A DNA stretch of 64,000 nucleotides from a virus. The stretch covers positions 1 through 64,000 of the IMG/VR virus record IMGVR_UViG_3300024312_000003; one strand, 5' to 3'. Both the position numbers and the translations under genes were made by a program. This document shows positions 8,734 to 64,000 of this stretch, piece by piece. The notes beneath the pieces are model-generated. The model was not told where the DNA came from. It saw nothing but the letters and a program-made list of their open reading frames with translations, and searched no databases. Every line of letters begins with the position of its first letter. Positions within the stretch are counted from its first letter, which is position 1.

Positions 8734-8765
8734 GGCATAAAGAGGGGAATTCCCCTCTTTATGCC
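8734..8765. terminator. bidirectional terminator palindrome, copy 1
   Basis: A perfect 32-bp palindrome with half-site GGCATAAAGAGGGGAA and an EcoRI sequence at its centre, filling the space between the convergent stop codons at 8732 and 8766. As RNA it gives a GC-rich stem with an outer A/U section, so it can act on both strands. It is identical to copies at 23524 and 27118. Confidence 0.85.
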
Positions 8766-56098: not shown

Positions 56099-56130
56099 TT
56101 TAGAGAGTAGGCATTAGCCTACTCTCTAAA
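56099..56130 (-). terminator. hairpin terminator
   Basis: Perfect stem with TTTAGAGAGTAGGC-type arms and loop ATTA, just after the stop at 56134 on the minus strand. A run of nine As lies left of it (56073-56086), giving a minus-strand U tract. Confidence 0.8.
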
Positions 56131-60393: not shown

Positions 60394-60406
60394 GATTTAG
60401 TTTCCT

Positions 60407-61273
60407 TTACTTATAACGTTTGACTTTGTGATCGTTAACGAAATCTTCATCCCAAACACAGAAAGCGCGATGCCGAATGTTGCTATTGGTAATCATACCG
60501 CCAGGATACTCCAGTCCACGATAACCGTATTCTTCCAACATCACGCGAATGCGTTGATAATTGAGTTTTCGATAAGGGAAGTGATGATGCTTCACCACTC
60601 GAAGGAAATCATCAAATTTCTCAATTTGAATAACTTTACGACGTTCATCGTGTACCCAGCTTCGAACCACAGACCCTGTTACTGGATCGCGTCGAGCCAC
60701 CAGTCTCGAATTTTCACGAATGGTGACTTCAATCTTGTCAGCAACACACCCCCAATCAAAGAACATTTTCAAATATTCTTCAGGAGTGGTACGGTCGAGC
60801 ATCAACATCGAGTCGTTGAACAATCTTTCAGGGAAATTGAATTCGCTGATGTACCCGACTTGTTTGGGTTTCTCTTTGTGATACGTGTAGTTGCAAGAAA
60901 GTGGTTGAGCTTTATCGAACAATGTGGATCGATCGATCTTAACCTCAATGAAACCTTCCTCAATCTTGTCAAGGAATTGATAGTGATCGAAGCTGGTAGC
61001 TTCTTCAATCTTTTTCTTCAAAACTTCAGTCACGTATCGACCGTACGCGATTTCTTGAGCGTGTTGTTTGGTTGCAGCTCTTCCTTGAAACAAGACCACT
61101 TTGGAGTCACGAGAATATCGCTCATAGTGACCTTTGGTACGATAAGTTTCAGCCACATTCTTCTTGGTGGTCAGATAAATACCTTGACCAACCAAACAAC
61201 GTTTGTTTGTTTTGTTGAAGTCGAATTCTTTGATTTTTTCAGCGTCACCGCGATAGAGTGTGATCGTGCTCAT
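60407..61273 (-). CDS. ADP-ribosyltransferase-fold protein (ART-PolyVal-like), 288 aa
   Basis: Start ATG 61273. Residues 6-10 (LYRGD), 29-45 (GQGIYLTTKKNVAETYR) and 248-278 (YGYRGLEYPGG, RHRAFCVWDEDF) follow the ART layout of (R/H)-(Y/S)-E: R8 in the first strand, the GIYLTT turn with Y33 in the second, and the final GYxGxE (E255) followed by the FCVWDxDxV end typical of ART-PolyVal proteins. A long insert (about 60-245) carries the rest. ARTs use NAD to modify proteins, RNA or DNA. The first bases overlap the kinase-like gene by 29 bases, and the DHH gene follows, which suggests a nucleotide-handling cluster. Activity and target are inference. Confidence 0.65.
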   Translation of the reverse strand: MSTITLYRGDAEKIKEFDFNKTNKRCLVGQGIYLTTKKNVAETYRTKGHYERYSRDSKVVLFQGRAATKQHAQEIAYGRYVTEVLKKKIEEATSFDHYQFLDKIEEGFIEVKIDRSTLFDKAQPLSCNYTYHKEKPKQVGYISEFNFPERLFNDSMLMLDRTTPEEYLKMFFDWGCVADKIEVTIRENSRLVARRDPVTGSVVRSWVHDERRKVIQIEKFDDFLRVVKHHHFPYRKLNYQRIRVMLEEYGYRGLEYPGGMITNSNIRHRAFCVWDEDFVNDHKVKRYK

Positions 61274-61661
61274 GATTCAAAATGTTTTCTAAATATTGTT
61301 TCGAATTCAATACAATCGATTCAGTACTTGATTGCTTAAATCCATTTATAAGAATATCCCAATGTTCTTGAAGATGCTCTTCAAGTTCTGTGGATTTATT
61401 CCTTTTATTTATTCTATTTATGTATTCTTCTTTTAAAGATATGTCTGGATAAATTATTTTGTATTTAATTTGTCGTTTATTTAATTCTTGTCTTAGAATA
61501 CCCCACATTGGTAAAAGTGGAATTTTACCACAGTTTTCATTTTCTAGAGCAAGATTTACAATTTCATCGACTCCCAAATACGGAATGTCAAGATCAATAA
61601 ACCTTGAATTCTTCCTACTTAGAGTAGTTTTACCTGTAGCGTGAAAGCAACAATAAATCAT
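61245..61661 (-). CDS. P-loop kinase-like protein, 138 aa
   Basis: Start ATG 61661, ribosome-binding site AGGACCC. A Walker A-like loop at the very N-terminus (CCFHATGKTTLSR, K11-T12) lacks the first glycine of GxxxxGK(S/T). DLDIPYLGVDEIVN and YKIIYPDISLKEEYINRINK with a terminal lid-like helical region resemble small nucleoside or adenylate kinases. At 138 residues it is shorter than typical (about 190-220). The ribosome-binding site lies in a hairpin that could block translation; see findings. It overlaps the ART-like gene by 29 bases. Confidence 0.6.
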   Translation of the reverse strand: MIYCCFHATGKTTLSRKNSRFIDLDIPYLGVDEIVNLALENENCGKIPLLPMWGILRQELNKRQIKYKIIYPDISLKEEYINRINKRNKSTELEEHLQEHWDILINGFKQSSTESIVLNSKQYLENILNHEHDHTLSR

Positions 61662-61665
61662 AAGG

Positions 61666-61736
61666 GTCCTAATTATTAAGAACTCAATTAAAAAATCTTA
61701 ATAATTAGGACAGAGATACAATTGTATCTCTGTCCT
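61666..61736 (-). promoter_or_regulatory. nested hairpins in the leader of the kinase-like gene
   Basis: Two inverted repeats overlap. Hairpin A: 16-bp arms (GTCCTAATTATTAAGA) at 61666-61681 and 61696-61711, whose left arm includes the ribosome-binding site AGGAC. Hairpin B: a 30-bp perfect palindrome at 61707-61736 (half AGGACAGAGATACAA). B uses the last five bases of A's right arm, so they are mutually exclusive. This is a switch-like layout. Confidence 0.6.
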
Positions 61737-61742
61737 GTTTAG

Positions 61743-62057
61743 TTACTTCTTACCGAAATGTCGTTGGACAAAGCCTTCACGATTGATGATCGTGAAACCC
61801 ATCTGCTTGAGTTCAGCAAAGCGTTTGAGAACCATCTGCGGAGACTTGTAAGGCTCTCCCGTCTTCTTGTTCAACAAACCACTCCATTGGACCTTGTAGC
61901 CGTCTTTGAGATGGTTATAATCTGGTCGACGAGAATCGACTTTCTTGAAGGCCGCAGGAAGCTTATCAGGATTCCATTTCTCATTGACTGCCACAATGAA
62001 GCAGTTCGAGCCATGGATCGAGAAAGAGATGTAAATTTTGGTCAGTTTCTTTGTCAT
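61743..62057 (-). CDS. hypothetical protein, 104 aa
   Basis: Start ATG 62057. A basic alpha/beta protein, KIYISFSIHGSNCFIVAVNE, WNPDKLPAAFKKVDSRRPDY, then WSGLLNKKTGEPYKSPQMVL and a basic C-terminus. The aromatic and basic residues suggest nucleic-acid contact. It is downstream of the AAA+ gene by 6 bases and is ended by the hairpin at 61707. No family recognised. Confidence 0.6.
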   Translation of the reverse strand: MTKKLTKIYISFSIHGSNCFIVAVNEKWNPDKLPAAFKKVDSRRPDYNHLKDGYKVQWSGLLNKKTGEPYKSPQMVLKRFAELKQMGFTIINREGFVQRHFGKK

Positions 62058-62063
62058 GTTGTT

Positions 62064-63527
62064 TTATCCGTTACTAGATGCTAGTGGTTCATCGGGAGCT
62101 GGTGGATTAAAGGGAGACGCGTTAATTCTGCTATTTCTTTGAGTTTGAGAAAGATCAAAATCCCAGTTCAAATCTTTATTTGTTTGAAAGGGAATATTTC
62201 GATGTCCTACCTCATTACTGATAGACCCATGAATTCCGTGTTGAAACATCTTTACTGAGTCACGCACAATTTCGGCTGCTGACGGCCATCCGGTTGGATA
62301 ATGAATATCCTCTGCGTGTGGATGTTCAAGACGTACCGGAGCAATATTGCTCCTGTCGTTAGGATTATGATTCTTCAAACTTTCAGAATCTTTGATGATT
62401 GCCTCATCTGATCGATGCTCTGTATCGAAAAGATAATTCTTAGTCTTGAATTTAAGAGTATCAGTCTCAATTTCAAATCCAGAATCACCTAGGGTGATTT
62501 TCAATTCAGAAAAATCACCTCTTGTAATTTGAGTAGTTTCAGAGTAGGCAAATTCAAATTCGTTAATTTTTTTAGTTCTCTTAAAGATAGTGTAATAACT
62601 ATAATCCCCATTAATCCTTAGGAAATAGGTTTCTTCCTTTTCGTCAAAGCAATTAATGCACGAATATTGATCACCAAATGTGCCGTTTGTTTTAAGCTCA
62701 TAAAACACTTCATTGGAAATTGCTTCAATCGAATTCACAATACTTTCGTTATGAATGTTAGATTCAGTAACGTAAGCTTTCAACAAATCGTAAGTGATCT
62801 TAATTTGTTGAGTCATGATGGCGAGTTGAATTATTTCTTTTGTGGTCATTCCTCGTTTGTAATTATCTTTGAAATATTCAATCACTTCAGGGAATTTCAA
62901 AGATTCGAAGAATTTAGAGTATCGAATTCGACCCGGACGACCTTTCAAGTATTCGTTTACCCGACTGTAATCGTTGGCGCAAATGATTGTCAGCTTCTTA
63001 CCACCACCACACGAACCATCAAGAATGCTCAAAATACCATTTTGAGCAGACGTCTCTTCGTTGAGTTCAGGATTGTAATAATGCTTGTCAAATTCATCAA
63101 ACATCACAACGATGTTTTGCTTGATCTTTGCAAAAAGATTTGCAAGCATATTCAGAGGAATTGCGTGATCAACAATCACCACTGGATAATCCATACCGAG
63201 TGCTGTTTTTGCGATCACCTGCAGCGTGGTTGTTTTACCAGTACCTTTGAGACCGTAGAGGCCAATACCCATGCAGGTGTCTTGGGTTTCAAAAGTCTTG
63301 AGGTATCGAGCTGTGTCTTTGTGGACACTTCCGTAAATCTTGGGAGGTGGGTTTGGAAATTCAGAAAGTTCCAGATAGAGATTTTTCTCCTCACCATCAA
63401 ATCGGATTCGATAAATTCCAGTTGGAATTGCATCATGAATGTTTCCAGGAACCATCGTCATGGCGTCGACGCGGCCATCCGGATGAACATTAAAGGCGAA
63501 CTTACGAAGATTTTGAGTAGAAGTCAT
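62064..63527 (-). CDS. AAA+ ATPase, 487 aa
   Basis: Start ATG 63527. Walker A GLYGLKGTGKTTT at residues 89-101 (K98, T99), Walker B IVVMFDEFDK at 139-148 (D144, E145), sensor 1 TIICANDYSR, and an arginine-finger region LKGRPGRIRYSKFF. The fold is close to the bacterial-type clamp-loader, BCS1 or FtsH-type AAA module. The N-terminal 80 residues are a beta domain, and the C-terminal 230 residues include CINCFDEKEETY and a proline-rich end, both unassigned. It begins an operon with several small genes and probably remodels a protein or nucleic-acid target. Confidence 0.8.
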   Translation of the reverse strand: MTSTQNLRKFAFNVHPDGRVDAMTMVPGNIHDAIPTGIYRIRFDGEEKNLYLELSEFPNPPPKIYGSVHKDTARYLKTFETQDTCMGIGLYGLKGTGKTTTLQVIAKTALGMDYPVVIVDHAIPLNMLANLFAKIKQNIVVMFDEFDKHYYNPELNEETSAQNGILSILDGSCGGGKKLTIICANDYSRVNEYLKGRPGRIRYSKFFESLKFPEVIEYFKDNYKRGMTTKEIIQLAIMTQQIKITYDLLKAYVTESNIHNESIVNSIEAISNEVFYELKTNGTFGDQYSCINCFDEKEETYFLRINGDYSYYTIFKRTKKINEFEFAYSETTQITRGDFSELKITLGDSGFEIETDTLKFKTKNYLFDTEHRSDEAIIKDSESLKNHNPNDRSNIAPVRLEHPHAEDIHYPTGWPSAAEIVRDSVKMFQHGIHGSISNEVGHRNIPFQTNKDLNWDFDLSQTQRNSRINASPFNPPAPDEPLASSNG

Positions 63528-63542
63528 TTTTGATCAGTTGAT

Positions 63543-63812
63543 TTATTCAGAAATGTACTTGGTGATGATTTCTTCAAGAGTGTGACTGCGAAGCAAACCT
63601 TCGATTTGACCGACGGCTACGAGCACATCACCCGCGTCCAGATCAGTAGGCGCATCAATTGCCAGACGCTCTTCCCCGTCTTCGTATTTGATTTTTACAA
63701 TTGTGAAAGAGCCGGGATCCCAGTCTAGAAATGTTGAAAACAGTTTATTCAAAAAACTGATGTCAAAAGCAGTGACTGCGCTTGCTTGGATTGGAATGAA
63801 TTTGAGTTCCAT
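63543..63812 (-). CDS. hypothetical protein, 89 aa
   Basis: Start ATG 63812. Small acidic protein, MELKFIPIQASAVTAFDISF, DDGSFTIVKIKYEDGEERLA, and a helical C-terminus (LEEIITKYISE). It lies 15 bases upstream of the AAA+ gene on the same strand and may be its partner. No family recognised. Confidence 0.55.
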   Translation of the reverse strand: MELKFIPIQASAVTAFDISFLNKLFSTFLDWDPGSFTIVKIKYEDGEERLAIDAPTDLDAGDVLVAVGQIEGLLRSHTLEEIITKYISE

Positions 63813-63840
63813 GATTTACCCAAAATAAAAAGAATGTTTT

Positions 63841-63882
63841 ACCTATTACACTTCAGTGATATGTATCTGAAGTGTAATAGGT
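63841..63882 (-). terminator. hairpin terminator near the right edge
   Basis: Stem of 16 perfect pairs (ACCTATTACACTTCAG with its complement) and a 10-base loop, just downstream of the partial gene ending at 63893 on the minus strand. Confidence 0.75.
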
Positions 63883-63892
63883 TTTATGTTGT

Positions 63893-64000
63893 TTAGATCA
63901 CGATGTCTTCAGCAAGAACAGGCGCTGGAAAATACTCCATGTAGTTCTTGCCGAGTTTCTCCCAGACCATGTTGATCTTCATCTCCAACTCTTCGATTGT
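63893..64000 (-). CDS. C-terminal fragment of an unknown gene (partial)
   Basis: The last 35 residues are visible: a helical end (IEELEMKINMVWEKLGKNYM) followed by FPAPVLAEDIVI and a stop at 63893-63895. The beginning lies beyond the right edge. Too short to assign. Confidence 0.6.
   Translation of the reverse strand, partial: TIEELEMKINMVWEKLGKNYMEYFPAPVLAEDIVI

Follow-up and report, generated by a model that had tools for sequence, protein, structure and literature searches.

Why should the short gap in front of a small phage gene hold two long hairpins, one of which covers the ribosome-binding site of that gene, and do they govern its translation? The gap lies in the window analysed here, the first 64,000 nucleotides of IMG/VR record IMGVR_UViG_3300024312_000003, which at 180,490 nt is a fragment of a phiKZ-like jumbo phage (its major head protein groups with phiKZ-like phages and shares 47% identity with the one from Burkholderia phage FLC9). 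Nucleus-forming phiKZ-like phages use their own polymerases for transcription, and translation control at the genes of phiKZ-like phages is scantly described in the literature consulted. On the minus strand, an ORF of 104 amino acids (61743..62057), for which Pfam and PHROG searches gave no match, is separated by 81 nt from the ATG of a kinase-like ORF of 138 amino acids (61245..61661), which carries the P-loop HATGKTT at its N-terminus and matches PHROG 4182 (phrog_4182, E 1.3e-21); PDB and Pfam searches gave no identification of its product. The kinase-like ORF overlaps by 29 nt the next ORF (60407..61273, minus strand), termed ART-like here from weak DUF3990 and ART-PolyVal matches, both under the Pfam cut-offs. 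Genes were called with a simple caller, which missed the atypical kinase-like ORF, and this was added by hand; its third-position GC is low (rank 8 of 208), which suggests that it was recently acquired.

The initial annotation placed the AGGAC ribosome-binding site of the kinase-like gene in a hairpin with 16-bp arms, paired with an upstream GTCCT, and its arms, coordinates and sequences were as described. This hairpin, A (61666..61711, minus strand), has a perfect stem (16/16 bp, arms 61666-61681 and 61696-61711) around a U-rich loop of 14 nt, UUUUUUAAUUGAGU, and is predicted to fold with -20.4 kcal/mol alone; CCTTATG follows it in the sense direction. The Shine-Dalgarno (SD) sequence lies inside its 3' arm (AGGAC, 61670-61666, hereafter AGGAC#2), ends 4 nt from the ATG at 61661 and has its partner GTCCT (61711-61707) 41 nt upstream, so that the SD is held in a stable helix whose other arm lies upstream, in the manner of T4 gene e. 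The second hairpin, B (AGGACAGAGAUACAAUUGUAUCUCUGUCCU, 61707..61736, minus strand), lies 6 nt beyond the stop codon that closes the upstream ORF at 61743, and is a perfect palindrome of 30 nt (15-bp arms) that as RNA would form 13 bp with an AAUU loop (-21.1 kcal/mol). As had also been claimed, B takes the same upstream bases as A: GUCCU (61707..61711) is common to both, and the outermost 5 nt of the 5' arm of B are a second AGGAC (AGGAC#1, 61732..61736), the competitor of the SD for GUCCU. The perfect arms go far beyond chance, which favours a regulatory reading: the folded leader has a stability z-score of -4.7, and 0 of 200 shuffles reached its stability. AGGA also proved to be a true SD word of this phage, being found at 67 of 207 called starts compared to 15 in shuffled upstream sequence, and the idea that the phage initiates independently of SD sequences was rejected on this enrichment.

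The further claim that the two hairpins exclude each other went too far, as they have just 5 nt in common and folding placed both stems side by side; they lack the mutual exclusivity of a terminator and antiterminator. Full B with an 11-bp remnant of A came to -29.3 kcal/mol and full A with what is left of B to -28.3 kcal/mol, so the end states are about 1 kcal/mol apart, which does not exceed the uncertainty of the energy model and counts against a switch between them. What survives of the claim is a predicted SD-hiding pairing and a rivalry for GUCCU, the sole contested stretch, which pairs either with AGGAC#1 (in B) or with AGGAC#2 (the SD). Because GUCCU alone is contested, opening the SD is cheap (about 2.5-3 kcal/mol) when AGGAC#1 is free to pair; with AGGAC#1 blocked or absent the cost rises to about 9.7-12.7 kcal/mol, and without GUCCU it falls to 1.1 kcal/mol (all are in vitro model values). 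These costs favour a regulatory competition, as does the pairing probability of 0.7-0.9 for the AGG of the SD in a 130-nt leader. Among 208 genes the full-length leader ranked 51 by the energy needed to open its start region and 11 by SD pairing, suggesting that its default state is not strongly closed, which counts against such regulation.

Transcripts entering the leader likely start at an early-promoter motif on the minus strand, TTCAGATACATATCAC (core 63863), which is the nearest upstream; this motif (TTTCAGATACATATNAC with its flanks) scores highly, at 19-42, at 17 sites, all on the minus strand. Within the leader itself no early-promoter motif was found (best score 2.0), nor, with up to 2 mismatches allowed, any phiKZ middle motif, and so transcripts from the known promoter type would carry both hairpins. 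From the 63863 promoter to a hairpin at 56099-56130, no gap other than that of B/A holds a perfect hairpin of at least 11 bp, which favours a regulatory role for the pair. The core at 63863 is itself in a hairpin loop (63841..63882, 16-bp stem), and RNA begun there would be without the 5' arm of that hairpin.

The hairpins are thus real and plausibly have a regulatory role, of which the function is a prediction. The reading that we favour, tentatively and as possible rather than probable, is that B and A compete for GUCCU and that this sets the accessibility of the kinase SD. The 81-nt gap would then serve as 3' UTR and 5' UTR at once within a block of early-type genes, with B as a hairpin of the upstream gene's 3' end, A as a start-site hairpin able to sequester the kinase SD, and AGGAC#1, GUCCU and AGGAC#2 as the strands of a three-strand toggle. 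With B fully closed, GUCCU would be held and the kinase SD easy to open; were AGGAC#1 unavailable, GUCCU would move onto the SD and A would close it. AGGAC#1 might be lost through a ribosome finishing the upstream gene, through RNA processing or through initiation inside B. The likely outcome would be kinase-like initiation that is lower or dependent on the state of the leader, with the ART-like gene affected likewise through the 29-nt overlap. This reading draws on the sequence with its perfect arms, on the calculated folding energies, on the genome-wide hairpin class to which B belongs and on a leader in which no promoter was recognised; from these we infer that the toggle may operate in the cell, what might trigger it and how it would affect translation. 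A toggle of five bases would be a compact means of setting the ratio of two adjacent cistrons.

A terminating ribosome extends about 9-10 nt beyond the stop codon. In a specific and unlikely form of the toggle, coupling would be negative: a ribosome ending the upstream gene would cover AGGAC#1, free GUCCU and shut the next SD, and if so the kinase-like and ART-like genes would be translated mainly from mRNAs on which the upstream cistron is untranslated. In translational attenuators of the erm type, alternative hairpins form and a ribosome on the upstream sequence decides access to the SD. The leader resembles these in its alternative pairings, between which an upstream ribosome could decide, but differs in that no stalling signal in a leader peptide precedes it, since the ORF upstream is an ordinary gene of 104 amino acids, and in that the upstream ribosome is predicted to close the SD rather than to open it.

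The main rival is nearly as likely as the toggle, and holds that A and B are ordinary hairpins (serving the mRNA 3' end, termination or stability) which touch the SD through the shortness of the gap and do not regulate the kinase-like gene. The genome holds 91 hairpins of at least 11 bp, counting perfect pairing only, most of them in gaps, compared to 0-1 in mononucleotide shuffles, and so the mere presence of such hairpins in the leader is not remarkable. B in particular has a simpler identity, that of a post-stop 3'-end hairpin of the upstream gene, and it is one of 56 cases that begin within 30 nt after a stop codon. Many hairpins of this phage lie near genes with no SD covered, as do other stacked pairs near 34.0, 68.9 and 78.0 kb, and the SD of the full-length leader is, as described above, cheap to open, all of which would be expected if the overlap were incidental. 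Against this, the other hairpins adjoining called starts all stop between -13 and -23, but for one before 76832 that comes to -7, whereas A extends to -5 and over the entire SD, which is unusual among start-adjacent hairpins and supports the toggle; moreover, the repeated AGGAC gives near-balanced rival pairings, which would seldom be expected from random placement (a judgement made without a formal probability). Even if incidental, A and B show how densely this phage family marks gene ends with hairpins.

Conservation also bears on the choice between the toggle and incidental overlap. A leader resembling A/B was absent from all seven distant kinase homologues inspected in annotated phages, where the annotated start overlaps or adjoins the preceding ORF; this counts against the toggle and for incidental overlap, and indicates that the leader is not a conserved part of the kinase gene family. 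In one of the seven, that of AB1I1M-1, the start region is also structured (14.8 kcal/mol to open). Scans of IMG/VR with the kinase-like, upstream ORF, major head and AAA proteins gave no relatives, hairpin A and the early promoter used as search patterns gave no copies, and blastn of 60400-64000 against phages gave no match. The post-stop hairpin pattern found nothing in genome_contigs and matched two IMG/VR records, one being this phage (99.95% identity over the stretch compared) and the other a relative, neither of which has a kinase match.

It is improbable that the leader acts at the level of transcription, with B and/or A halting most polymerases and so setting the ratio of downstream to upstream expression. 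The position of B, 6 nt past a stop codon, is like that of the terminator-like hairpins of this phage, and the CCTTATG after A recalls a hairpin class marked by TATG at the base of the stem here, in phiKZ and in FLC9. However, neither stem has a U-tract directly 3' of it in the sense direction, contrary to a classical form of the attenuator that the initial annotation had offered as one possibility, and a scan of the minus strand at A/B gave no intrinsic terminator. B also has no TATG within 16 nt, unlike the 40 of the 56 post-stop cases in which TATG sits at the foot of the stem on its 3' side; A, downstream of B, carries the TATG but overlaps the start site. B is nevertheless like the post-stop hairpins of phiKZ and FLC9 in starting a few nucleotides after the stop, similar hairpins being found in both phages. 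Under a looser hairpin definition, TATG accompanied 46 of 73 hairpins in this genome (7/73 in control windows), 15 of 21 in a 50-kb stretch of phiKZ (2/21) and 7 of 12 in one stretch of FLC9 (0/12). This link is an association with a putative functional role, and its occurrence in three phages raises either a common 3'-end element or a connection between termination and late initiation. The core of the phiKZ late promoter is TATG, with the G as +1 (PMC4666361). At convergent gene ends the TATG faces both ways, which fits a 3'-end element better than a promoter, and the gap upstream of phiKZ gene 119 has a TATG with no obvious hairpin; the post-stop TATG was accordingly set aside as evidence for a promoter of the kinase-like gene.

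A timing device as in T4 gene e or I-TevI, in which read-through RNA would be locked at the SD by A and RNA begun between the arms would be translated, is quite improbable here. The layout does match, since in the T4 e, soc, 49 and I-TevI leaders the SD is paired in a long helix with an upstream arm (PMC3014915); there as here, a phage SD is paired tens of bases upstream and transcripts bearing the arm would be expected to translate poorly. An early promoter does sit in the loop of another hairpin of this phage (63841-63882), and by folding, RNA begun at 61706 would have an open SD. The T4 leaders, however, are freed by a promoter whose transcripts lack the 5' arm, and none of the recognised types was found between the arms of A, given an early-motif score of 2.0 against 19-42 at the high-scoring sites, the lack of a phiKZ middle motif and no TATG in the sequence between the arms. 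The sole TATG of the leader overlaps the start codon, and if its G were a +1 of the phiKZ type the RNA would lose the AU of that codon. The T4 leaders also differ in that no second hairpin competes for the arm, as B does in the toggle that we favour.

An RNA thermometer or ligand-binding riboswitch, both suggested earlier and both sharing the general layout of an SD-sequestering hairpin, is very improbable, as pairing of the AGG hardly changes with temperature by folding (0.89/0.85/0.76 at 20°C and 0.89/0.77/0.68 at 42°C), the best Rfam match to the leader was far from threshold (rli24, 24.9 bits compared to 100), and there are no close relatives and no conserved sequence; with no promoter motif, U-tract, Rfam match or temperature response, attenuator, riboswitch and thermosensor are alike unsupported.

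Two further features of the hairpin population were seen. Near-identical palindromes, GCATAAAGAGGGGAA and TTCCCCTCTTTATGC, occur at 8734, 12929, 23524, 27116, 33427 and 52683, each between convergent genes, with further copies elsewhere in the genome and in the IMG/VR relative; such copies at convergent gene ends are among the 56 post-stop cases. At 78001-78064, beyond the window, two hairpins are stacked such that the U-rich tail of a terminator-like hairpin forms the 5' arm of the second.
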